From assembly GCF_015291745.1 (NCBI RefSeq), contig NZ_CP030059.1, positions 5,297,501-5,361,500 on the forward strand: a stretch of DNA of 64,000 nt, given 5' to 3'. Below are positions 6,729 to 36,797 of this stretch, piece after piece; position 1 is the stretch's first letter, and every line of letters begins with the position of its first letter. The stretch is from Bradyrhizobium sp. CCBAU 53351 (lineage in GTDB: Bacteria; Pseudomonadota; Alphaproteobacteria; Rhizobiales; Xanthobacteraceae). Below the pieces are notes generated by a model that was given only the letters and a program-made list of their open reading frames with translations, was not told where the DNA came from and searched no databases. The translations under genes and the position numbers were made by a program.

Positions 6729-8737
6729 GTGACGTATAGACAAGACATAGACGGTCTTCGCGCGCCATCTCCATCCTCGGTGTCTTGGTCTTTCACTTCT
6801 TTGGAGCAACGCTTCCTGGCGGCTTCCTGGGTGTCGATGTATTCTTCGTTGTATCCGGATTTTTGATTGTCGGGCTGATCCTCGACGAGATCAGCGCCGC
6901 CTCTTTCTCGTTCCTGCGCTTCTACGAAAGGCGCATTAGGCGACTGGTTCCAGTTGCTGCCATCGTCACGCTGACGACCTGTCTGGCAGCGTGGTTGCTC
7001 TCGCTGCCGCCAGAGCTCATCGACTTCAGCAAGAGCCTCGCGGCATCCGCAACATTTCTTTCAAATTGGTATTTCCTTGCGACGGTTGGCTACCTCGACG
7101 GCCCTGCCACGTTAAAGCCCTTGCTGCACACGTGGTCACTTTCCATCGAAGAGCAATTCTATCTTGTTGTTCCTGCCGTCATGGTCGCGTGCGCAAGGTT
7201 GCACCGGGTCAGGCATTTCTCGACTTTCGTTCGCAGCATCGCTCGCCTTTGCAATCTGGCTTAATATGACCGCACACTTCGATGCCGCGTTCTATAACTC
7301 CTTCGCTCGCATATGGGAGTTGTCGCTGGGCGGTCTTGCAGCCTTTGCCTATCGCCGCAAAATCCAGATTCCTCGGTTGCTCGCCTCTGCACTTCCGCGT
7401 GACCGGGATTATTGTCATCGGGACCACGTTCTTCCTGACGCCGATCGAAGTACAACGTCACCTGCTTTCGGTCTCCTCGGCTTGTGCCGGCGCCACCTTA
7501 CTCTTGATTGCGCCCCCATATGCGCAGGACGGACTCTTACGATTGCTCTCCTCATCGCCAGCAACCCTCATCGGACGAATTTCCTATTCTCTTTATCTAT
7601 GGCATTGGCCCGTGCTGGTATTCGGACGGCTGTACTTCGAACCGCTCGCGCTGAACGTGGCACTCGGCCTCATCGTGCTCACCTTTGCGTTGTCGACCGC
7701 AACCAATTATCTTGTCGAAAATCCAATACGTCAAAAGCGACTCCTGATCGGAATGCCGCGCGTCTATATCATGGGCACCCTAGCGACATGTGCCGTGCTG
7801 GCATTTGCTGCGAACGGTGTTCGCACCAACGGCGCACCGAATCGTCTTCCGGAGCGCGTGGCTTAGGCCCTGGCCGCGCGCAACGTTGTAGACGGCCCCA
7901 ACTACCACTGTTTCGATCCACCAGGCACGGATTTCGTTTTCTCAATGGTCGAGAAAAACAAACAAAGACGAGCTTTGCCTCATCGGCAAGCATGATCCCG
8001 CCAAAGTGGATTTCATCGTCTGGGGTGACAGTCATGGATGGGCAACATCGCCCGCGCTGATAGAGCTCGCGGAGAAATATAGACTAACCGGCATCCTCGC
8101 CAACTACGCAGGCTGCCCGCCGCTAGTAGGTACCCACAACGGCTGGCGCGGAACAATCAAATCCTGCACCGAATTCTATGACGCAGTCGAGAATCTCATT
8201 CAGAGGCACGGCGTCAAAAATGTCTTCCTGATCGCTCGATGGAGCTTATACACAATCGGAACGATGCAAGGCAGTGAAGCGCCTGCAAGCCCTTATCTCG
8301 TCTTCAACGAAGATTGGAATATAGAACCTAATCGGTTGAAAGTTTTTGAACAGTCCCTTTTCAACACGGTTCGACAGCTGCAAAACGTGAATGTGTATCT
8401 CTTCAAGGAAATCCCAGAACAGCGCCAGAGCGTTTATCGAATCCTAGCGAGAAACGAGTTGCTCCGCCGCAGCAGCGACGAAGCGTGGACGACGTGGCAG
8501 ACGCACACCGAGCGTCACAAGCCCATCGACGACATCATCGCGTCTGCTGCCGAACGGAGCGACAACCTCACGATCATCGATCCTATTCCGATGAGGTGCC
8601 CGGATCGAAAGTGCGTTGTCGAGATGAAAGGGAAGCCGCTGTACTGGGACGAAGATCATTTGAGCAAGACCGGCGCGAGATATCTTGAGCCCGTTTTTGA
8701 ACGGGCCTTTCAGCGTATGGCGAAACGAAACGAATAA
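6729..8737 (+). pseudogene. Broken OafA-type acyltransferase with C-terminal SGNH domain
   Basis: Read across frames this is one protein of the acyltransferase-3/SGNH family. GTG at 6729 gives YRQDIDGLRA; a frame change at 6759-6766 leads to GVLVFHFFG, FLGVDVFFVVSGFL and LLHTWSLSIEEQFYLV. A second change near 7195-7230 leads to FYNSFARIWELSLGGL. A third near 7365-7400 leads to ISYSLYLWHWPVLVF. An in-frame TAG stands at 7864, and a last change near 7955-7965 opens the SGNH part (VDFIVWGDSH, DEDHLSKTGA). The intact family O-acetylates or succinylates glycans at the membrane. Protein between lesions is well kept, so decay is recent or the local sequence is faulty. Confidence 0.85.
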
Positions 8738-23871: not shown

Positions 23872-26583
23872 TTAGCTTAAGATGAGGAAGTCTATTAGAT
23901 TATGCGTCGCCATCTCTATGAGGCCGGTCGTCCCGTCTCCGTTTAGATCTTGGTGGAAAATGGTCTCGGCTTGCTTCAGAGCAGTGCTATTTCCGTCGAT
24001 TGTACCAGTGTTGTTCAAGAAGCCGCCCCTATTATCGGTAGTCCAAATGGTGAATTGGTTGGTGCCGGGGGTCTGCCACACTATCTCAAAGCCACCGGGA
24101 ATTTGCTCTGCTCCGATCGGTGTCCAGGCGTTGAACTGCCCCTGCTCCACCGGAGAGCCATAAAATTTGAGCTCCGGCCCCGTTCCGCCCCCAACTGTGT
24201 TCAAGTAAAAGTTGCTGCCGCTTTTAATCAGGCTAGTAGCACCGAACGTTTCGATCGTAGTGACCGTAACGCCAGTCGTACCGTCTCCATTGAGATCCTG
24301 ATGAAGAATGGTCTCGGCTTGCTCAAGAGTAGTGCTGTTTCCGTCAATTGTACCGGTGTTGCTTACGAAGTTGCCGCTACTGTCCGTTGTCCAAATCGTG
24401 AATAGGTTCGTGCCTGGGGTTTGCCACACGATCTTAAAACCGGCGGGAATTTGCTCTGCTCCGATCGGTGTCCAGGCGGTGAACTGACCCTGCGTCACCG
24501 GAGAACCGTAAAATTTGAGCTCGACCGCCGTCCCGCCCCCAACCGGGTTCATGCAAAAGTTGCTGCCGCTTTCAATCAGACTGGTCGCACCGAACGTTTC
24601 GATCGTGGTGACCGGAAGGCCAGTCATACCGTCTCCGTTCAGATCCTGATGAAAAATGGTCTCGGCCTGCTTCAGAGCAGTGCCGTTTCCGTAGATTGTA
24701 CCGGTGTTGCTAAGGAAGCTGCCGCTATTATCGGTCGTCCAAATGGTGAATTGGTTGGTGCCCGGGGTCTGCCACACTATCTCAAAGCCACCCGGAATCT
24801 GCTCTGCTCCGATCGGTGTCCAAGCGTTGAATTGACCCTGCTCCACTGGAAAACCGTAAAATTTGAGCTCCGGCCCCGTCCCGCCTCCAACCGGGTTCAT
24901 GTAAAAGTTGCTGCCGCTTTTAATTAAGCTGGTGGCACCGAACGTTTCGATCGTAGTGAACGTAACGCCGAACGTACCGTCTCCGTTCAGATCCTGGTGA
25001 AGAATGGTCTCGGCTTGCTCAAGAGCAGTGCTGTTTCCGTCAATTGTGCCGGTGTTGCTTACGAAATTGCCGCCACTGTCGGTGGTCCAAATTGTGAATA
25101 AGTTCGTGCCTGGGGTTTGCCACACGATCTCAAAACCGGCGGGAATTTGCTCTGCTCCGATCGGTGTCCAGGCGTTGAACTGGCCCTGCGTCACTGGAGA
25201 ACCATAAAATTTGAGCTCGGGCCCCGTCCCGCCCCCAACCGGGTTCATGTAAAAGTTGCCACCGATCTCAATTAGACTGGTCACGCCCAGAGCCTCAAGA
25301 GAGATAGGTGGGCTCGCCAGCGTCGTGGCCGTAACTACGAAATCGGCAAACTTGAAGTTCTCCACCCCCGCCACCGTATCGGTGCCGTCCGGCGTGCCGC
25401 CGCGCTGGTCGACCAGCGTGAAGGTCTGTGTCGTCGCGTTATACGTAATCGTGTAATTGGTCCGGTTGCCCGAATACACCGCGGTGTCGATGCCCGAGCC
25501 GCCGACGATGGTGTCGTTGCCCGCTCCGCCCGTGATCGTGTCGTTGCCGCCGCCGCCGTTCAGCGTATTGGCGATCGCGTTACCGACGATGGTGTCGTTG
25601 CCGGATCCGCCGATCGCGTTGTCGATGTAGGAGCGCGCGTCTCCGTTGTAGAGATAGGCGTTGTAGACGTTGCCCGAGGCGTAATGGCCGTCGCCGAGAT
25701 ACGCCAATTGCGTCGCGGAGAACACCGACGACGCACCGGGATTGAGATTGATGCTCAGGTTCGTCGTGTAGTTCGACAGGTCGTAGGTATCGACGCCGCC
25801 GCCATCCCATACCGTCTCGTAGATGCGGTCAGCCGAACCGCCGACGCCGCCGCCCGGCGCGAGCTGCCCGACGCCGTTGATGAACTCCTGCCCGGTGGTC
25901 GGATTCCAGGTGTAGACGGTGCTGCCGCTCTGGGTCGTGTAGTCCGCGCCGTACATCGTCTGCAGCGCGAGGATATCGTTGGCCATGTAGGTCTGCGAAT
26001 ATCCGTACGCCTCGTTGGTGTAGCCGGACGTGGTCGAACCACCGACATAGCTGCGATAGCTCATGACGGTGTATTCGCTGTCGTCATGCGCGCTCGGCAC
26101 TGCGACGTTGGCGGGGCCGCCGGCCTCCTGGCTGTGCTTGAGGCCGAAGGCATGGCCGAGCTCGTGCAGCGCCGTGGTGAAGTAGTAATTGCCGAGCTTG
26201 GCCAGCGAGAAATTGTACTGAGTGCCGAACCAGACGTCCCCGCCGGACGCGTAGTTGCCGGGATAGTAGGCGTAGGCGGTCGGATTGGCCGCCGGCGACT
26301 GCGCGACCATGATGTCGGCGCCGTTCGTGCCCGCGTATTGGATGTCGGCGTTGGTGTAGCTGAGGATCAATCCGACCGCGTAATTGATCGCCGCCTGAAT
26401 CTGGCTGGGCACCGGGGCAAAGCCCGACGTGGTCGGCTCGCTGCTGCCGCCGCTGTAGGGATTGGAGTAGTCGCTCGTCGCATCGGGAAAGCTGTAGGTG
26501 ATCGTGCCAGACCATTTGGCGCCCGACAGCAGGCCGTCGATCTCGGCGTTGTTGGTGGCACTGACATTAACGGCGGTAGCCAA
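23872..26583 (-). CDS. Serralysin-type M10 metalloprotease with RTX motifs and four C-terminal repeats
   Basis: 903 residues. The zinc site HELGHAFGLKH is at residues 140-150 and the Met-turn VMSYRSY at about 173-179, so the protease should be active. RTX nonapeptides (GGSGNDTIVG, GGGGNDTITG, GGAGNDTIVG) lie at 324-371 and should bind calcium. From about residue 430 to 895 there are four 116-residue repeats, each with a D-L-N-G-D-G calcium-loop motif and a TIWTTDS-type strand. No N-terminal signal peptide; the hydrophobic C-terminal tail fits type I secretion. No secretion genes are adjacent. It stands alone, downstream of an inverted repeat that could control it. Confidence 0.92.
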   Translation of the reverse strand: MATAVNVSATNNAEIDGLLSGAKWSGTITYSFPDATSDYSNPYSGGSSEPTTSGFAPVPSQIQAAINYAVGLILSYTNADIQYAGTNGADIMVAQSPAANPTAYAYYPGNYASGGDVWFGTQYNFSLAKLGNYYFTTALHELGHAFGLKHSQEAGGPANVAVPSAHDDSEYTVMSYRSYVGGSTTSGYTNEAYGYSQTYMANDILALQTMYGADYTTQSGSTVYTWNPTTGQEFINGVGQLAPGGGVGGSADRIYETVWDGGGVDTYDLSNYTTNLSINLNPGASSVFSATQLAYLGDGHYASGNVYNAYLYNGDARSYIDNAIGGSGNDTIVGNAIANTLNGGGGNDTITGGAGNDTIVGGSGIDTAVYSGNRTNYTITYNATTQTFTLVDQRGGTPDGTDTVAGVENFKFADFVVTATTLASPPISLEALGVTSLIEIGGNFYMNPVGGGTGPELKFYGSPVTQGQFNAWTPIGAEQIPAGFEIVWQTPGTNLFTIWTTDSGGNFVSNTGTIDGNSTALEQAETILHQDLNGDGTFGVTFTTIETFGATSLIKSGSNFYMNPVGGGTGPELKFYGFPVEQGQFNAWTPIGAEQIPGGFEIVWQTPGTNQFTIWTTDNSGSFLSNTGTIYGNGTALKQAETIFHQDLNGDGMTGLPVTTIETFGATSLIESGSNFCMNPVGGGTAVELKFYGSPVTQGQFTAWTPIGAEQIPAGFKIVWQTPGTNLFTIWTTDSSGNFVSNTGTIDGNSTTLEQAETILHQDLNGDGTTGVTVTTIETFGATSLIKSGSNFYLNTVGGGTGPELKFYGSPVEQGQFNAWTPIGAEQIPGGFEIVWQTPGTNQFTIWTTDNRGGFLNNTGTIDGNSTALKQAETIFHQDLNGDGTTGLIEMATHNLIDFLILS
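23899..25296 (-). repeat. Four tandem 348-bp coding repeats
   Basis: Within the metalloprotease gene the same block returns every 348 bases (116 codons), for example the segments starting near 24251, 24599 and 24947 are almost the same. The copies are highly similar at DNA level with scattered substitutions, so they can recombine to change copy number. Each encodes a beta-rich module with phrases such as VWQTPGTN and HQDLNGDG. Confidence 0.9.
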
Positions 26584-29368: not shown

Positions 29369-30139
29369 ATGAAAGTCGTCATTCTTGCGGGAGGCCTCGG
29401 CACGCGAATCACGGAGGAGACCAGCACGCGACCGAAGCCGATGGTGGAGATCGGCGGGCGGCCCATCCTGTGGCACATCATGAAGATCTACAGCCATTAT
29501 GGCTTCCATGATTTCGTGATCTGCCTTGGCTACAAGGGCTTCATGATCAAGGAGTACTTCGCGAACTACTTCCTGCACATGTCCGACGTGACCTTCCACA
29601 TCGCCGAGAATCGGATGGAAGTGCATCGCGAGACCGCCGAGCCGTGGCGGGTCACGCTGGTCGATACCGGCGAAGAGACCCAGACCGGCGGCCGGTTGAA
29701 GCGGGTGCTGGCTTACGTCGTGGACGAGCCCTTCTTCGCATTGACCTATGGCGACGGTGTCGCCGACATCGACCTTGCCGCCGAAATCGCTTTCCACAAG
29801 GCGCATGGGCGCCGTGCCACCGTTTCCGTGGTGCGGCCGGCCAAGCGGTTCGGCGCGATCGCGATCGAGGGCGACCGCGTCATCAATTTCGAGGAAAAGC
29901 CAAATGACGACGGCGGCTGGATCAACGGTGGTTTCTTTCTGTTGTCCCCGTCGGTCGGCGAGCTGATCGCCGGCGACACCACGATCTGGGAGCGCGAGCC
30001 GATGGAGCAACTGGTGCGCAGCGACGATCTGCGCGCCTATGTACATCCCGGGTTCTGGCACCCGATGGACTCGCTGCGCGATCGCAACTTTCTCGAAGGC
30101 GAATGGGCCGGCAACCGCGCCAGATGGAGGATCTGGTGA
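29369..30139 (+). CDS. rfbF: Glucose-1-phosphate cytidylyltransferase
   Basis: 256 residues from ATG 29369, which has GGAG 12 bases upstream; an earlier in-frame start at 29345 is less likely because the family begins at MKVVILAGGLGTRI. The nucleotidyl-transfer signature LAGGLGTR...RPKPMVEIGG is intact, and FHDFVICLGYKG and WINGGFF are typical of RfbF. It makes CDP-glucose from CTP and glucose-1-phosphate, the first step to CDP-linked 6-deoxysugars. Its TGA overlaps the GTG start of the dehydratase gene (GTGA). Confidence 0.93.
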   Translation: MKVVILAGGLGTRITEETSTRPKPMVEIGGRPILWHIMKIYSHYGFHDFVICLGYKGFMIKEYFANYFLHMSDVTFHIAENRMEVHRETAEPWRVTLVDTGEETQTGGRLKRVLAYVVDEPFFALTYGDGVADIDLAAEIAFHKAHGRRATVSVVRPAKRFGAIAIEGDRVINFEEKPNDDGGWINGGFFLLSPSVGELIAGDTTIWEREPMEQLVRSDDLRAYVHPGFWHPMDSLRDRNFLEGEWAGNRARWRIW

Positions 30140-31200
30140 CGGATCCGGCATTCTGGCGCGGCAAGAAGGTCTTTCTCACCGGCCACACCGGTTTCAAAGG
30201 CGCGTGGGCGTCGCTGCTGCTGCGCCGCCTCGGAGCCGAGGTCTACGGCTATGCGCTGCCGCCGACACACCAATCTGCGCTGTTCGTCACCGCGCGCATC
30301 GCCGACGACATCAAGCACCACCTCGCCGATATCCGCGATCTGTCCGTCCTGCGCGCCGCCATGGCAGAGGCCGAGCCCGACATCGTCATCCACATGGCGG
30401 CGCAAGCGCTGGTGCGCCCGTCCTATGACGAGCCGGTCGAGACATTCGCGACCAACGTGATGGGCACCGTGCATGTGCTGGAGGCGGCACGGCATCTACG
30501 CTCGGTGCAGGTGATCCTGAACGTCACCAGCGACAAGTGCTACGAGAATAGCGGCAAGGGCGCCCCCTTCGGCGAGGGCGACCGGCTCGGTGGCGACGAT
30601 CCCTACAGCAACAGCAAGGCCTGCGCGGAGCTCGTGACGCATTCCTACCGCCACAGCTTCTTCAACGCGAGCGGTGCGGCGCGCGTCGCGACTGCGCGCG
30701 CCGGCAACGTGTTCGGCGGCGGCGACTGGGCGCGCGACCGCCTGGTGCCCGATGCGATGCAGGCCTTCCTGGCAGGCGAGGCGCTCCGCATCCGCAATCC
30801 CAATTCGGTGCGGCCCTGGCAGCATGCGCTCGACCCGGTGCTCGGTTATCTCGCGCTGGTCGAGCGATTGGCGGGCGATGAACGATTCGTCGGCGGCTGG
30901 AATTTTGGACCAGATGCCGCAAGCGAGGTGCCGGTCGGGACCGTGGTCGATCGCCTGATCGCCCTCTGGGGTGACGGCGCGCGGTGGACGGCCGACGCCG
31001 GCCCGCATCCGCACGAGGCCGCCTATCTCAGGCTCGATTGCACGAAGGCGCGGAGCGAGCTCGGCTGGGCGCCGCGGCTCGATCTGGCGCAAGGCCTCCG
31101 CCTGACCGTCGAATGGTACAAGGCGCTGCGCGAGGGCCGGGATCTGCGGAGCTTCTCGCTCGATCAGCTCGACCAGGTCGCCGGCACCGCGCCGGCTTGA
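30136..31200 (+). CDS. rfbG: CDP-glucose 4,6-dehydratase
   Basis: 354 residues from GTG 30136, chosen for its GTGA overlap with the upstream stop and the GGAGG just before it; ATG 30124 is in the same frame. LTGHTGFKGAWASLLL binds NAD (residues 14-29), VTSDKCYEN carries the catalytic Thr-Asp-Lys, and YSNSK (Tyr157, Lys161) completes the site. It converts CDP-glucose into CDP-4-keto-6-deoxyglucose, the branch point to dideoxy and branched sugars. The gene is convergent with the kinase-like gene and abuts it without a gap. Confidence 0.93.
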   Translation: MTDPAFWRGKKVFLTGHTGFKGAWASLLLRRLGAEVYGYALPPTHQSALFVTARIADDIKHHLADIRDLSVLRAAMAEAEPDIVIHMAAQALVRPSYDEPVETFATNVMGTVHVLEAARHLRSVQVILNVTSDKCYENSGKGAPFGEGDRLGGDDPYSNSKACAELVTHSYRHSFFNASGAARVATARAGNVFGGGDWARDRLVPDAMQAFLAGEALRIRNPNSVRPWQHALDPVLGYLALVERLAGDERFVGGWNFGPDAASEVPVGTVVDRLIALWGDGARWTADAGPHPHEAAYLRLDCTKARSELGWAPRLDLAQGLRLTVEWYKALREGRDLRSFSLDQLDQVAGTAPA

Positions 31201-32091
31201 TCAGCCCGGCAGATCGAGGATCCCGGCGATGCGGTCCTCTGCCGACACCGCGTGCTTCAGGTGCTCGCCCGACAAGACCGCCAGATAGGATTTGAGCAGG
31301 ACGACGAGCGCGAGGATGGCGCGCTCGATATCGGGCGAAAGGCCGGTTCGGCCGAAGGCGTCCTTTTGCAGGAACGGCCGGTTCTCCATGAAGGTCAGCC
31401 AATAGAGGTAGTCGTAGCCGGCGAAGCCGCGGAATGCGTCTTCCCAGTCGATGACGCGCGGCGCGCCTTCCTGGAGCATGATGTTCTTCGGCCCGAAATC
31501 GCCGTGACAGAGCGCCTCGGGCAAATGCGGAAGACGTTCGGCGAGCAGCGCGATCAGTCTGCGCACCCCGATGGCAGTGCTCTGCGCGAGCAGGCCGCGG
31601 CTCGAAAGCATCGCCAGCGCCTTTGCGGCGGACGCCAGATAGTGCTCGAACGAGGCAAGCCCGTCCGGCCGTCGGTCCGCGAGCCGCTCACTGCATTCGG
31701 CTGCCATTGCAACAGCTTCAGCGGGCTGTATCGGGGCGGTCAGCGGCGTGAGCGCGGGCATCATGAGGCAGAGCCGCACCGTTCCGTCTGAGAGGGGGAT
31801 CTCGAAACGTTCGAGCAGGGTCGTGTTGCCGTAGAGCTGCGCGAGGATCTCGGCTTCCTTGGCAAGGCTGGCGCGCGCACGTGCGCCCGGCAGATGTGTC
31901 TTCAGAAAGCGCTTTTCGCCGGAGACGTCCGCATTGTAGCAGGCACCGAGCGTGCCGCCGGGCGCCGGCATGACGGTGGCGTTGCGGCCAAAGGATTGCA
32001 AATGATGCTGCAGCGCCGGGAGGAGGCGCGCCCGATCGGCAGCGATGTCGGGGCGGTCGTCGGCTTCGAAGAACGCGATCTTACTCAGCAC
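31201..32091 (-). CDS. APH-fold phosphotransferase (aminoglycoside/choline kinase-like)
   Basis: 296 residues. RFLKTHLPG places the ATP-binding lysine (Lys64), ALCHGDFGPKNIML is the catalytic Brenner motif (His196-Asn203) and RVIDWEDAF the metal-binding aspartate (Asp215). The fold phosphorylates hydroxyls of sugars, choline or drugs. Its start overlaps the sulfotransferase-like gene by 11 bases, so the two form a coupled minus-strand pair inside the CDP-sugar cluster. Phosphorylation of a sugar or a glycan seems more likely than drug resistance, but this is inference. Confidence 0.85.
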   Translation of the reverse strand: MLSKIAFFEADDRPDIAADRARLLPALQHHLQSFGRNATVMPAPGGTLGACYNADVSGEKRFLKTHLPGARARASLAKEAEILAQLYGNTTLLERFEIPLSDGTVRLCLMMPALTPLTAPIQPAEAVAMAAECSERLADRRPDGLASFEHYLASAAKALAMLSSRGLLAQSTAIGVRRLIALLAERLPHLPEALCHGDFGPKNIMLQEGAPRVIDWEDAFRGFAGYDYLYWLTFMENRPFLQKDAFGRTGLSPDIERAILALVVLLKSYLAVLSGEHLKHAVSAEDRIAGILDLPG

Positions 32092-33034
32092 GATAGAGCG
32101 GGCTCAGATAGTCGATCCGGTCGTAGCCGAAATGACGAGCGAGGGCCGCCGTCCCTTGTGCGATCTGCTTGCGCTCCTCGTCCGAAAGTTCCTGGATCAC
32201 GGCCTGGTTGTAGTCCTTCGTGCTCTTGAGCACGGTCCCCCAGGGCGCGATGGAGTCCTTGATTTCGACGCCGTTCCAGCTCGGATAGAGCATGGTCTCG
32301 GCGAAGGGTACGCCGATGAAGTCGGCCGCCTCGGTCATGAACTTGCGCTTGTCGTCCACGAGGTCTTCGTAACGGAAGATCCGCACGTTCTCCGGGTACA
32401 TCCTGGCAAACATCTCGACCGTGGAGTGATAGATGTTCCAGGTGATCAGGTATTTGGTCAGCGGCTGCGGGAACGGGCGGCGCTTGGTGTCGCGGTATGC
32501 CGAGAACGGATTGCGCACGACGTGCAGGATGCGGATGTCAGGAAAGTCGCGCACCATGCGATCGGCATCGATCCCGATGGCGGGGGAGTAGCCGACGTGC
32601 ACCATGCCCGGGCGCGGCTTGGTGTAATAATTCTCCCAGGCGGCGAATGTCGCGCGGAAGAAGGCCTCGATGACCTGGCGGCGGAAGATCGGCGGCTGGC
32701 CGGCGATCCGGGCGAACTCGGCGACCCGCTTCTTCTCGTCCATCACGCAGTCCGCGTCGCGGAACTTGGAGCCGTTGCGCTTGCGCAGGAAGGTCTTCAA
32801 CTCCTCGTCGATCATCTGCTCGTAGAGCTCGATGGCCGTCAGCCCCTCCGGGAATTCGGGATAGCGGTACTGAACGCGCTCGACCGAGGCCAGGAAGTCG
32901 TTGAAACTGCGGTTTCCGAGCTGCGATTCGAAGGGATAGACGAGCAGGTCAGGATGGCCGTCGAAGTGACGATGAGTGACGTTTCCGCCGTGCTCGAAGC
33001 CCGCGGAAACCATGGCCAGCCTGAAGTCATTCAT
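32081..33034 (-). CDS. Sulfotransferase-like protein
   Basis: 317 residues from ATG 33034. HVVRNPFSAYRDTKRR matches the 3'-phosphate-binding motif of PAPS sulfotransferases and FRYEDLVDDKRKFM the later conserved segment. The 5' loop is unusual (SAGFEHGGNVTHRHF) instead of the common PKSGTT type, though some bacterial members carry a G-x-E-x-G-G loop. It would sulfate a sugar or lipid. It is the upstream partner of the APH-fold kinase gene and divergent from the SDR gene at 33188. The frame is open far upstream, but that part is antisense to the SDR gene. Confidence 0.8.
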   Translation of the reverse strand: MNDFRLAMVSAGFEHGGNVTHRHFDGHPDLLVYPFESQLGNRSFNDFLASVERVQYRYPEFPEGLTAIELYEQMIDEELKTFLRKRNGSKFRDADCVMDEKKRVAEFARIAGQPPIFRRQVIEAFFRATFAAWENYYTKPRPGMVHVGYSPAIGIDADRMVRDFPDIRILHVVRNPFSAYRDTKRRPFPQPLTKYLITWNIYHSTVEMFARMYPENVRIFRYEDLVDDKRKFMTEAADFIGVPFAETMLYPSWNGVEIKDSIAPWGTVLKSTKDYNQAVIQELSDEERKQIAQGTAALARHFGYDRIDYLSPLYRAE

Positions 33035-33187
33035 GCCTCTACCCCTGCGTCGAGCTTCGATCTGGCCCTCCCGTTTATCCGCATGGGCCGGATAATCAAG
33101 TTCGGATCGCCTTTCGGCCGTCCCGGGCAGGGGACTGCCGAAGCGAGACATTGACGGCCCCGGGGGTAGCTGATCTACCCGAGGCTT

Positions 33188-34105
33188 ATGCGTGTCTTTG
33201 CCACCGGTGCGAGCGGTTTCCTCGGCTCCTATCTCGTTGCGGACCTCATGGCGCGGGGGCACGAGGTGGCCGTTCTGTTGCGCCCGGCAGGTTCCTCTTG
33301 GCGCCTCGGGCAGCTTCGTGACCGGCTGCAGGTGATCCCGGGCAGTCTGGAGCAGCCGGACGAGCTGCGCGGCGCGCTGGAGGCATTCGCGCCGGACGCG
33401 GTCGTACACATGGCCTGGCGCGGCGTCGCGGGCAGCGATCGCAACAGCCCGGTTCAGGCCGTCAACGTCGCCGATACGGTGGGCCTCGCCGAACTGGCAG
33501 CCGACGCCGGCGCCAGGATCTTCGTCGGAGCCGGGTCGCAGGCCGAGTACGGACCCTATGATCGCGCGATCCGGGAAGATGACGTGCCGCGGCCGACGAC
33601 ACTCTACGGCATGGCCAAGCTCGCGGCCGGATCGATGGCGATGCGCCTGTGCGAGGAGCGCGGGGTGCGTGCGGCGTGGCTCAGGATCTTCTCGACCTAC
33701 GGCCCGAAGGATGCCGACCACTGGCTGATTCCAAGCATGATTCGGAACTTGCGCTCCGGCCATCATATGGCGCTGACGGCCTGCGGGCAGCGCTGGGGAT
33801 TTCTGCACGCGCGCGACGCTGCCAGCGCTTTCCGCCTGGCGATCACGCATGAAGCGGCGTGCGGCATCTTCAATGTCGGCAGCCAGGACGCGCCGCCGCT
33901 GCGCGAGACGGTGACGCGGCTGCGCGATCTCGTTCGCCCCGGTGCCGCTCTCGGCTTCGGCGAGTTGGCGTATCGGCCCGATCAGGTTATGGTCCTGGCT
34001 GCGGACGTTTCGCGCATGCTCGCCTTGGGTTGGAAGCCCGAAGTGCCGTTGGATGAGGGATTACGCGAGACGGTAGACTGGCATGACGCGACCAAATCTC
34101 CCTGA
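33188..34105 (+). CDS. NAD(P)-dependent sugar reductase/epimerase (extended SDR)
   Basis: 305 residues. ATGASGFLGSYLV binds the nucleotide, VGAGSQAEYGP carries the catalytic Ser, and TLYGMAKLAAG the Y-x-x-x-K. Similar SDRs in CDP-sugar clusters reduce the 4-keto group of CDP-linked dideoxy or branched sugars. It is the first gene of a three-gene run: its end overlaps the transketolase N-subunit gene by 23 bases. The best guess is the last reductive step to the finished CDP-sugar; C-3 or C-5 epimerisation is the alternative. Confidence 0.85.
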   Translation: MRVFATGASGFLGSYLVADLMARGHEVAVLLRPAGSSWRLGQLRDRLQVIPGSLEQPDELRGALEAFAPDAVVHMAWRGVAGSDRNSPVQAVNVADTVGLAELAADAGARIFVGAGSQAEYGPYDRAIREDDVPRPTTLYGMAKLAAGSMAMRLCEERGVRAAWLRIFSTYGPKDADHWLIPSMIRNLRSGHHMALTACGQRWGFLHARDAASAFRLAITHEAACGIFNVGSQDAPPLRETVTRLRDLVRPGAALGFGELAYRPDQVMVLAADVSRMLALGWKPEVPLDEGLRETVDWHDATKSP

Positions 34106-34901
34106 GCCGAAGGAATTCGCACGACGCATTCGCGCACACGCGTTGCGTATGGTGCATGCCGCGAAGGCCTCCCATATTGGCGGATGCCTCTCCATGGCGG
34201 ACATCCTGGCCGTGCTCTACACGCGGATCCTGCGCGTCGATCCCGCCGATCCACAAGCAGCAAGCCGTGATCGCTTCGTGCTCAGCAAGGGCCACGCCAC
34301 GGCGATCATGTACGCCACGCTTGCCGAATGCGGTTTCTTTTCCGTGGCCGAGCTCGACACCTATTGTCGCGACGGATCGATCTTCACCGGACATGTCAGC
34401 CATGCCGTACCCGGCATCGAGGTTTCGACGGGCTCGCTCGGCCATGGCCTGCCAATTGCCATCGGCATGGCGCTGGCCGCACGGACGGCAGGGGTGGGCA
34501 GCCGGGTGTTCTGCCTGCTCAGCGACGGTGAATGCGACGAAGGCTCGAACTGGGAGGGCATCCTGTTCGCGCCCCATCACAAGCTCGACAATCTCTGCGT
34601 CATCGTCGACTTCAACAAGATCCAGAGCTTTGGCTCGGTTGCCGAGGTGTTGAACCTCGATCCGTTTGCCGAGAAATGGAAGGCGTTCGGCTGGCAGGTC
34701 GAGGAGATCGACGGCCACGATCTCGCTGCGCTCGAAACTGTGCTGGGCGGCGTACCGGCAGCGTCGGGCAGGCCCACCGTCGTGATCGCCCACACCGTGA
34801 AGGGCAAGGGCGTGAGCTTCATGGAGAACAAGCTCGAATGGCATTACCGCTCACCTTCGGATGAGCTGCTTGCGCAGGCGCTGGCCGAGGTCGGCGCATG
34901 A
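34083..34901 (+). CDS. Transketolase-like enzyme, N-terminal (ThDP-binding) subunit
   Basis: 272 residues covering only the N-terminal half of a transketolase. SKGHATAIMYATLAE, GSLGHGLPIAIGMALA and the thiamine-diphosphate/magnesium motif SDGECDEGSNWE (residues 147-158) with Asn178 are all intact. HTVKGKGVSFME closes the domain. It needs the pyrimidine-binding partner encoded next (start ATGA overlap at 34898). Split transketolases occur in pentose metabolism and in special sugar pathways; here the setting of CDP-glucose genes points to the latter. Confidence 0.93.
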   Translation: MTRPNLPEPKEFARRIRAHALRMVHAAKASHIGGCLSMADILAVLYTRILRVDPADPQAASRDRFVLSKGHATAIMYATLAECGFFSVAELDTYCRDGSIFTGHVSHAVPGIEVSTGSLGHGLPIAIGMALAARTAGVGSRVFCLLSDGECDEGSNWEGILFAPHHKLDNLCVIVDFNKIQSFGSVAEVLNLDPFAEKWKAFGWQVEEIDGHDLAALETVLGGVPAASGRPTVVIAHTVKGKGVSFMENKLEWHYRSPSDELLAQALAEVGA

Positions 34902-35821
34902 GGACGACGTTCATCGAGAGCCTGTCGCAGGTGGCCAGCGAAAACCCCGACATCTGGCTGCTCTGCGGCGATCTCGGCTATTCCGTGCTCGAGCCATTCG
35001 CGGCGAAGTTTCCCGATCGCTATCTCAATGTCGGCGTTGCCGAGCAGAACATGGCGGGGATCGCCGCCGGCATCGCGCTGTCGGGCAAGACGGTCTTCAT
35101 CTACTCGATCGGCAATTTCCCGACGTTGCGCTGCCTCGAGCAACTCCGCAACGACGTCTGCTACCACGGTGCCGACGTCAAGATCGTGGCGGTGGGAGCC
35201 GGCTATGCCTATGGCAGCCAGGGTTATACCCACCACGCGCTGGAAGATGCGGGGATCATGTCGATGCTGCCGGGCATCGAGGTGTTCGTGCCCTGCGATC
35301 CCATGGAGGTGCGCGCGGCAACGAAACTGATTGCAGGAAGTGGCAAGCCGTCTTACCTGCGGCTCAGCCGTCAGGGGGAGCCATATCTCGGCGTCGCCGT
35401 AACCGACCTGCGTAAGCCCAGGGTTTTGCGTGACGGACGGGACATCGTCATCCTCGCGTCCGGGCCGATCGCCTCCCGCGCGCTGGAGGCTGCCGACGAG
35501 CTGGTCAGGCGCGGCAAGGACACAGGTGTCGTCAGCGTCTCCTGCCTGAAGCCGCTCGACGAGGCGGCGATCCGCGAGGCCGTGCGCGACGCCTCGCTGA
35601 TCGTGACGCTGGAAGAGCACATCCTGCGCGGCGGCCTGTTCAGCTTGGCGGCGAGCGCGTTCGCCGGCGACGCGGTCCGGCCGCCGATGATCGGCATCGG
35701 CATTCCCGAGCAATCCGGAAAGATCTCGCAGGCGGGATCGCGGGAGGCGCTGCTCGATGCCGCGGGTCTCTCGGCTCAGGCGATCGTCGCCCGGATCGAG
35801 CAATCGTTTGCGAGACGCTGA
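34898..35821 (+). CDS. Transketolase-like enzyme, C-terminal (pyrimidine-binding) subunit
   Basis: 307 residues: the Pyr domain has VGVAEQNMAGIAAGIALSG, whose Glu activates thiamine diphosphate, with TVFIYSIGNFPTLRCLEQL; the C-terminal domain has DIVILASGPIASRALEAA and VVSVSCLKPLDEAAI. It joins the N-subunit to form a full active site, a ThDP enzyme that moves a two-carbon ketol unit. The start codon overlaps the stop of the N-subunit gene (ATGA). The sugar acceptor is not known; a 4-keto-6-deoxy CDP-sugar is proposed from context. Confidence 0.93.
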   Translation: MRTTFIESLSQVASENPDIWLLCGDLGYSVLEPFAAKFPDRYLNVGVAEQNMAGIAAGIALSGKTVFIYSIGNFPTLRCLEQLRNDVCYHGADVKIVAVGAGYAYGSQGYTHHALEDAGIMSMLPGIEVFVPCDPMEVRAATKLIAGSGKPSYLRLSRQGEPYLGVAVTDLRKPRVLRDGRDIVILASGPIASRALEAADELVRRGKDTGVVSVSCLKPLDEAAIREAVRDASLIVTLEEHILRGGLFSLAASAFAGDAVRPPMIGIGIPEQSGKISQAGSREALLDAAGLSAQAIVARIEQSFARR

Positions 35822-35834
35822 GGTCGCCTGCGCG

Positions 35835-36797
35835 TCAGGCGCCCGATGGCGGCGTGGAATCGAAATTGACGCGCTCGCGCTCGAACACGACGGGCTTCTC
35901 GCGCACCTGTCCGTAGATCGCGAGGACGTACTCTCCGATCATGCCCATGAAGAACAGCTGCACGCCGCCGAAAAAGAACATGGCGACGATCAACGTGATG
36001 ATGCCGGGTTCGGCGAGTTGCCGGTACAGGACGAGGCCAATCACGAAATTGACGAGAGCGTAGCCGATGCTCAGGGCCGAGATCAGAAAGCCCGCGAACA
36101 GGCCGAAGCGGACCGGCGCCGTGGTGAAGGACACCAGCCCGTTGAGGCCCTGGTCGATCAGCGCGCTGGCGCGGTTCTTCGAAAAGCCCTTCTTACGCTC
36201 GCGCCAGGTGTAGGGCACGCCGACCATGCGGCCACCGCACTCGAATGTCATCATTCGCATGAAGGGATAGGCGTCGCGGACATGACGCATCGCCTCGACG
36301 ACGCGCCTGTCGACGAATTGGAAGTCGCCGACGCCCGGAGGCACCTTGAGCTCGGAGAACCTGGTCAGCACGCGGTAATAGGCCTTGCGCAGCCCGCGCA
36401 TCAGCCGACCTTCCTCCCGAACCGCGCGGATGCCGTAGACGATCTCGTTGCCGGCCTCCCACAGCTTGACGAACTGGGGCAGCAATTCGGGCGGATCTTG
36501 CAGGTCGGCCGGCATGAACAGCAGAACGGCGTCCCCGCTGCTAGCCATCACCCCGTTATAGGTGTTGCGCAGCGGCCCGAAATTGCGCGCGTTGACGATG
36601 ATTTTCACCGCGGAATCCTGCGCCGCGATCCCACGCAGGATCTCGACCGTGCGGTCGTCGGAATCGTTGTCGCAGAAAATGTGCTCGCGCCTATATCCGT
36701 GTAGATTGTTCTTGAATACGTCGCGGATTGCCTCGTAGCAATCTTTGACGTTGAGTTCCTCATTATAACAAGGCGTTACAATGCTTATCGTCTTCAA
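35835..36797 (-). CDS. Polyprenyl-phosphate glycosyltransferase (GtrB/ArnC/DPMS-like)
   Basis: 320 residues. The GT-A half shows ISIVTPCYNEELNV and the LLFMPADLQDPPELL motif typical of dolichol/undecaprenyl-phosphate sugar synthases; GFSKNRASALIDQGLNG precedes two C-terminal membrane helices (about 230-255 and 262-290), and GMIGEYVLAIYGQV closes. It loads a sugar on undecaprenyl phosphate for transfer in the periplasm. It is convergent with the transketolase genes, and probably handles the sugar made there. Which sugar is unproven. Confidence 0.9.
   Translation of the reverse strand: MKTISIVTPCYNEELNVKDCYEAIRDVFKNNLHGYRREHIFCDNDSDDRTVEILRGIAAQDSAVKIIVNARNFGPLRNTYNGVMASSGDAVLLFMPADLQDPPELLPQFVKLWEAGNEIVYGIRAVREEGRLMRGLRKAYYRVLTRFSELKVPPGVGDFQFVDRRVVEAMRHVRDAYPFMRMMTFECGGRMVGVPYTWRERKKGFSKNRASALIDQGLNGLVSFTTAPVRFGLFAGFLISALSIGYALVNFVIGLVLYRQLAEPGIITLIVAMFFFGGVQLFFMGMIGEYVLAIYGQVREKPVVFERERVNFDSTPPSGA

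Follow-up and report, generated by a model that had tools for sequence, protein, structure and literature searches.

A conserved Bradyrhizobium cassette with a split transketolase as a candidate route to a branched CDP-sugar

A cassette of eight genes that combines two enzymes of cytidine diphosphate (CDP)-glucose metabolism with a transketolase divided into two subunits lies within a 64,000-nucleotide stretch of the genome of Bradyrhizobium sp. CCBAU 53351 (contig NZ_CP030059.1, positions 5,297,501 to 5,361,500; hereinafter, the window). Judging from sequence comparisons, this cassette probably makes a C4-branched CDP-sugar via a transketolase version of the branching reaction of YerE, a thiamine diphosphate (ThDP) enzyme; the acceptor, donor and product named below are putative. 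The original prediction, made from the sequence of the window, was that the split transketolase branches CDP-4-keto-6-deoxyglucose for the O-antigen; two findings strengthen its YerE-like step, namely that a YerE-like enzyme replaces the transketolase in sister loci and that the transketolase N-terminal subunit is part of a gene fusion, whereas the acceptor, the donor and the link to the O-antigen are parts that we only infer.

The first two genes of the cassette, both on the plus strand, encode RfbF, glucose-1-phosphate cytidylyltransferase (29372-30139; TIGR02623, 421.6 bits, cut-off 300), and RfbG, CDP-glucose 4,6-dehydratase (30130-31200; TIGR02622, 446.8 bits, cut-off 278). Two minus-strand genes that are missing from the gene list of the original prediction, for an APH-fold kinase (31201-32091; PF01636, 57.9 bits) and a sulfotransferase-like protein (32081-33034; PF13469, 41 bits), sit between rfbG and the plus-strand gene of an extended short-chain dehydrogenase/reductase (SDR; 33188-34105) with Ser117, Tyr140, Lys144 and a GSQAEYG motif. 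The SDR is followed on the same strand by the transketolase N-terminal subunit (TKN; 34083-34901; PF00456, 157 bits) and C-terminal subunit (TKC; 34898-35821; PF02779 (Transket_pyr) and PF02780 (Transketolase_C)), and the last gene, on the minus strand, encodes a GT2 glycosyltransferase (35835-36797; PF00535). The reading frames overlap by 23 nucleotides between SDR and TKN, by 4 between TKN and TKC, by 10 between rfbF and rfbG, and by 11 in the kinase/sulfotransferase-like pair. The transketolase domains N, Pyr and C are all present, spread over the two chains, and the ThDP motif and the catalytic His and Glu residues of transketolases are intact. Against the full-length model NF004559 (cut-off 488), the two halves score 290 and 169 bits, each spanning only its own part of the model, and the nearest solved structures of TKN and TKC are the Carboxydothermus split transketolase, 6yak and 6yaj, respectively. 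The domain architecture of YerE-like enzymes (TPP_enzyme_N, M and C) is absent from the window transketolase, which has transketolase domains instead. Thus, equivalogs, domains and the 23-nucleotide overlap bear out the reading of these genes as a cytidylyltransferase, a CDP-glucose 4,6-dehydratase and an SDR overlapping a split transketolase. The polyprenyl-phosphate glycosyltransferase of the same reading holds as a GT2 enzyme, and it matches the polyprenyl-phosphate models, but far below their cut-offs (PgfS, 173 of 500 bits; ArnC, 117 of 529 bits), so that it is perhaps of the polyprenyl-phosphate type.

The cassette is conserved within the genus. From a TKN search of 265 Bradyrhizobium genomes, 40 regions around matches were taken, the 30 closest (L040-L069) and ten weaker ones, and in 29 of these 30 all eight genes have the same order and strand, which, together with the window, makes 30 of the 265 genomes; a gene order not kept in relatives, named beforehand as an outcome that would count against the original prediction, is not what is seen. 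The exception, L069, has diverged: the window kinase query matches nothing there, and another APH protein is present. In comparison with four cassette loci, the ratio of nonsynonymous to synonymous substitution rates lies at 0.05-0.25 in seven of the genes, with higher values for the kinase (0.30-0.43). Taken together, these sequence data suggest that the grouping of the eight genes is more than chance. The flanks of the 30 cassettes are rearranged, and a GT-C-like (DUF6056) gene that comes after the GT2 gene in 18 of 41 clustered loci was not found in the genome of strain CCBAU 53351 itself.

The strongest clue to function comes from genomes in which the transketolase has been exchanged. A search for RfbG in the same 265 genomes yielded a match at an E-value of 1e-70 or better in 95 and an identity of at least 74% in 45, of which 30 have the split transketolase, 11 have RfbH and a YerE-like ThDP enzyme, and 4 have neither (11-16 kb was examined around the 15 non-transketolase loci, L220-L234). 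The 11 sister loci (L223, L225-L234) share the arrangement rfbF-rfbG-RfbH-ThDP enzyme-SDR on one strand, with the GT2 gene on the other. RfbH is found by tblastn in all 11, being at least 89% identical to the L223 protein in the other ten, and the RfbH equivalog, run on L223 and L233, gives 717 and 712 bits, respectively (cut-off 423). The ThDP enzyme is 585-594 amino acids long and, in L223, consists of acetolactate-synthase domains; the enzymes of L223 and L233 fall below every equivalog cut-off shown. Both the SDR (64-68% identity to the window protein by tblastn in all 11 loci; 64-66% in three that were aligned, with the Ser-Tyr-Lys triad present) and the GT2 enzyme (81-86% in the 11 loci) are retained. 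The YerE-like enzyme has no match in the window or in L040-L079, and the transketolase has none in L220-L234, so that no examined region contains both enzymes; TKC and the L223 ThDP enzyme show no meaningful match to each other. Neither the kinase nor the sulfotransferase was found in the 11 loci with the YerE-like enzyme, and L222 contains a weak kinase match.

The two best solved relatives of the ThDP enzyme of the sister loci are 5ahk, which we take to be the YerE of Pseudomonas protegens (a literature search gave no tie of 5ahk to YerE), and 8rph, which in the alignment has CDG where the others have GDG. The CDG motif is a mark of the YerE-like enzyme JanthE, and YerE joins activated acetaldehyde to CDP-3,6-dideoxy-4-keto-D-glucose (PMC12247030). 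This acceptor is the expected product of RfbF, RfbG and RfbH, and the simplest reading of the exchange is that the split transketolase would carry out the matching step on CDP-4-keto-6-deoxyglucose. By the same gene content, the 11 genomes with RfbH and the YerE-like enzyme are predicted to make a yersiniose-like sugar. The exchange is strong context, not proof, for a carboligation on a 4-keto CDP-sugar and, as such, supports the branching idea.

The association of these families extends beyond Bradyrhizobium. Named genomes were scanned with an eight-sequence TKN alignment, and the best 80 loci among the matches listed, none of which comes from Bradyrhizobium, were combined with 20 further regions from the 63 of 397 genomes of the order that have a TKN match, for a total of 100 loci (L107-L206). 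By tblastn, rfbF and rfbG are located within 10 kb of the transketolase in at least 9 of the 100 (L107, L108, L109, L111-L114, L117 and L187), a lower bound because some contigs are short. TIGR02622 is passed by seven of the nine (L108, L109, L111, L112, L114, L117 and L187), which come from Pseudomonadota, Actinomycetota, Bacillota and Bacteroidota. RfbH occurs together with the transketolase in L107, L108 and L109 (714-758 bits), and, according to the NCBI annotation, a Methylovirgula plasmid carries rfbF, rfbG, the SDR, RfbH, both transketolase genes, GT2 and GtrA together. L114, from a Lachnospiraceae metagenome-assembled genome (MAG), encompasses the same eight families as the window cassette in a different order, with a sulfotransferase-like protein that is 77% identical to that of the window whereas the SDR and the kinase are only 28-30% identical. 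In a plasmid of Paenibacillus cellulosilyticus (L217), a 635-residue SDR-TKN fusion, placed between the rfbF/rfbG genes and TKC, adjoins rfbF, rfbG, a C-methyltransferase and TKC, which ties the SDR and transketolase steps to each other. Two split transketolases on Streptomyces plasmids were set aside as a sugar context: both belong to clusters of amino-acid genes, LysW among them, and one cluster also has non-ribosomal peptide synthetases. The sulfotransferase was also considered as a strict partner of the transketolase and rejected, given that it has 6 matches in 398 genomes of the phylum, 4 of them in Bradyrhizobium and 2 without a transketolase in the region. The N-terminal motif of the sulfotransferase-like protein, GFEHGGN, looks different from the usual loop that binds 3'-phosphoadenosine-5'-phosphosulfate.

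A phylogenetic tree of the split transketolases offers a further view of this association. Of 122 loci supplied, including nine of the 30 cassettes, 114 were used as concatenated TKN and TKC sequences, after eight with one half absent or not forming a single frame were dropped (L009, L115, L127, L138, L147, L155, L157 and L167); labels were taken from the tblastn context, except that three were set by hand (L008 and L159 as a type of their own, L110 as bradyrhizose type). A clade of 27 rows (SH-aLRT 99) contains 17 of the 19 CDP-labeled rows; a clade of 15 rows (SH-aLRT 100) consists of the bradyrhizose type, with a sixteenth such row, L110, inside the 27-row clade; and a clade of 66 rows of other split transketolases (SH-aLRT 99) includes no CDP rows. 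The CDP label requires 6 changes compared with a mean of 17.9 when labels are shuffled, and none of 500 shuffles was as low, with near-copies adding to the clustering. Among the nine unlabeled rows of the 27-row clade, L071, L119 and L126 have a PF02719 protein (332-343 bits; UDP-sugar 4,6-dehydratase type) nearby, the transketolases of L116 and L135 are next to a bacterial sugar transferase and an aldo/keto reductase, respectively, and L070 and L072 have the sulfotransferase. One annotated rhizobial relative sits among ABC-transporter and kinase genes.

The proposed pathway can be outlined as follows. By family assignment, RfbF and RfbG would yield CDP-4-keto-6-deoxy-D-glucose. With a ketose phosphate or hydroxypyruvate as donor, the split transketolase would then transfer a two-carbon ketol group to the C4 ketone of this intermediate, so that C4 becomes a tertiary alcohol and the product is a 4-C-hydroxyacetyl sugar. 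YerF is thought to reduce the side chain after YerE has acted, and the SDR may have a similar role, converting the new side-chain ketone into a 1,2-dihydroxyethyl branch. In this scheme, the transketolase would stand in for both RfbH and the YerE-like enzyme of the sister version of the locus. More tentatively, the GT2 enzyme might link the branched sugar to polyprenyl phosphate so that it can be transferred outside the membrane, and the kinase and the sulfotransferase-like protein might attach phosphate or sulfate. The stereochemistry of the branch, and a destination in the O-antigen, the core or the capsule, are likewise what we infer.

Several observations weigh against this reading. RfbH, the kinase and the sulfotransferase-like gene are exchanged along with the transketolase, so that YerE cannot be matched with the latter alone, and four loci (L220, L221, L222 and L224) retain rfbF-rfbG with neither the transketolase nor the YerE-like enzyme. 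Within the genus, rfbG contains one in-frame stop in 2 of the 30 cassette genomes, and L070 has the SDR, the transketolase and the sulfotransferase without rfbF and rfbG nearby, the rfbG of that genome being on another contig. Elsewhere, the sulfotransferase occurs without a nearby transketolase in L213 and L214, the SDR of L187 is more than 5 kb away from the transketolase, and the CDP-labeled loci L107 and L113 lack a TIGR02622 match at an E-value of 1e-70. In the tree, the CDP rows L112 and L113 fall outside the 27-row clade, no polysaccharide or dehydratase gene was seen by eye in the regions of its members L118 and L188, and, given the starred branches, the CDP label must change at least 4 times, which rules out one clean origin. 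All rows that were aligned retain the catalytic residues. The equivalents of His461 and Asp469 of the Escherichia coli enzyme, residues expected in a transketolase that acts on phosphorylated aldoses, are Gly and Gln in the window transketolase; the loss of His461 and Asp469 was rejected as a marker of keto-sugar acceptors, being common to the sugar clades and to other split transketolases of the order and hence not diagnostic. Finally, proposed ketone-accepting transketolases are called pending, and none is reported in vitro, in a review (PMC12247030).

Of the competing explanations, the one that survives best, itself unlikely, is that the split transketolase acts on ordinary sugar phosphates, supplying a precursor or another sugar, while the SDR reduces CDP-4-keto-6-deoxyglucose to a plain 6-deoxyhexose. 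Well-studied transketolases use aldehyde acceptors, as this explanation would have it, and the sequence and fold of the SDR are compatible with many nucleoside diphosphate (NDP)-sugar enzymes; an attempt to class the SDR by predicted structure and fold comparison did not separate reductase, epimerase and dehydratase. However, the genome already encodes three longer transketolase-like open reading frames (ORFs) of 679-747 amino acids, the transketolase is exchanged for RfbH and the YerE-like enzyme while the SDR is kept, the SDR and TKN are fused in Paenibacillus, and the transketolase clade is found mainly together with 4,6-dehydratases for CDP-glucose or UDP-sugars. It is less probable still that the transketolase branches a free or phosphorylated sugar made elsewhere rather than a CDP-sugar, as is perhaps the case in bradyrhizose-type operons with HldE-, SIS- and MurU-like genes, in which related split transketolases are present and no rfbF/rfbG pair was found, because the transketolases of those operons, L110 excepted, form the separate 15-row clade and the clade of the window mostly accompanies NDP-sugar 4,6-dehydratases. 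That the genes are adjacent solely through inherited synteny of a mobile polysaccharide island, with no common pathway, would fit the restriction of the 30 exact cassettes to one genus and their rearranged flanks but is highly improbable given the co-occurrence of the same families in other phyla, with other gene orders, and the SDR-TKN fusion. The branching of a CDP-4-keto sugar by the split transketolase is the preferred reading.

The original prediction also raised a link to unusual sugars, bradyrhizose in particular, and here the outcome is divided: the window is not the bradyrhizose locus, but a split transketolase lies directly downstream of gdh, a gene tied to that sugar. In strain ORS285, insertions in gdh, a member of an eleven-gene cluster, abolish bradyrhizose, an effect that is possibly polar (PMC4743980). 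Both published ORS285 gdh primers match L073 with zero mismatches, inside the SDR gene immediately upstream of the split transketolase; the six loci L074-L079 show 1-5 mismatches per primer, and in the set made up of the window, L008-L010 and L040-L079, only L073-L079 have 5 or fewer, with each primer having more than 5 in the window. The eleven-gene run of L073 (5094-15195, minus strand) comprises HldE-like, nucleoside triphosphate (NTP) transferase, SDR, SIS, gdh, TKN, TKC, zinc-dependent alcohol dehydrogenase (Zn-ADH), HAD-like, APH-like and methyltransferase genes. Pfam was run on the L073 NTP transferase, SIS, gdh, Zn-ADH and HAD-like proteins, the last of which gave no match, and on the L074 HldE-like and SDR proteins; the HAD-like, APH-like and methyltransferase names were assigned by eye. 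TKN of this locus is 51% identical to that of the window, and the tblastn panel found no rfbF/rfbG pair in the bradyrhizose-type operons. By its different gene set and its separate transketolase clade, the window cassette is not the bradyrhizose locus, and the seven Bradyrhizobium loci assigned to the bradyrhizose type (L073-L079) come from genomes other than the 30 with the cassette. Of the 27 genomes with reaction-center genes, 10 also contain a match to TKN (49-51%, residues 3-271), with the context checked in L073, L078 and L079. Among openly licensed papers, none was found that names transketolase together with bradyrhizose.

Ring closure of bradyrhizose is possible through the C4, C5 and C9 hydroxyls (PMC9912281), which fits a carbon branch at C4, the remaining carbon count being a matter of conjecture. 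The sugar could arise from a heptose route (SIS, HldE- and MurU-like enzymes) with a two-carbon addition at C4 by the transketolase, followed by oxidation at C7, ring closure and a methyl group from the methyltransferase of the operon (7 + 2 + 1 = 10 carbons). Bradyrhizose-type gene sets were also observed outside Bradyrhizobium (L110, L120, L129, L134 and L189-L193), in other families of the order and in MAGs labeled as other phyla. The genome of strain CCBAU 53351 has a second sugar locus (L008 2663-14503; contig C1, ∼4.6 Mb) with HldE-like, SDR, HAD-like, APH-like, split transketolase, two DegT, dioxygenase-like, cupin-like and methyltransferase-like genes, the last resembling the bradyrhizose one (names mostly by eye). 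TKN matches of 47-50% over approximately residues 16-259 are present in many other Bradyrhizobium genomes.

Two other features of the window were noted by eye: an acyltransferase-like region over ORFs in different frames, which may be frameshifted (6785-8737), and a long serralysin-like protein (23872-26583) that contains several repeats of ∼100 residues resembling one another, and a relative of which also follows rfbG in L221.

Among known systems, the closest parallel is the yersiniose pathway, which runs RfbF-RfbG-RfbH-YerE-YerF and, like the proposed route, starts from CDP-glucose, passes through a 4-keto intermediate and has a ThDP enzyme acting at C4 next to an SDR. Unlike that pathway, the window lacks RfbH and an acetolactate-synthase-type ThDP enzyme, has the kinase and the sulfotransferase-like gene in addition, and would add hydroxyacetyl where YerE adds acetyl. 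The split transketolases of miharamycin and amipurimycin biosynthesis have likewise been proposed, without proof, to add hydroxyacetyl to a keto sugar, and 13 such transketolases are known from gene clusters, all in Streptomycetes, according to a review (PMC12247030). The likeness is one of description: those clusters make nucleoside antibiotics, whereas the window contains a proteobacterial surface-glycan locus that uses a CDP-sugar route and in whose position sister genomes have a YerE-like counterpart. The eleven-gene bradyrhizose cluster shares the split transketolase beside an SDR (gdh) but differs in its HldE-, MurU-, SIS-, ADH-, APH- and methyltransferase-like genes, in the rfbF/rfbG pair not found there and in its transketolase clade. 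The Carboxydothermus split transketolase has the same two-chain architecture, but its TKC reads GEDGASHQ where that of the window reads GSQGYTHH. No account of this cassette was found in the openly licensed literature, and an earlier description might exist elsewhere.

If the proposed pathway is correct, the two versions of the locus would represent a non-homologous replacement of a rare carbon-carbon bond-forming step at one chromosomal location, and ketone-accepting transketolases, so far an untested proposal for Streptomyces, would also be a matter of surface-glycan loci in several phyla, providing enzymes for tertiary-alcohol synthesis. Whether split transketolases constitute a further natural route of keto-sugar branching in the surface glycans of several phyla, beside YerE-like and α-keto-acid-dehydrogenase-like enzymes, and maybe in bradyrhizose too, appears evenly balanced. 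They would also be a lead to the origin of the carbon skeleton of bradyrhizose, a symbiont sugar that reportedly elicits no immune response in plants.

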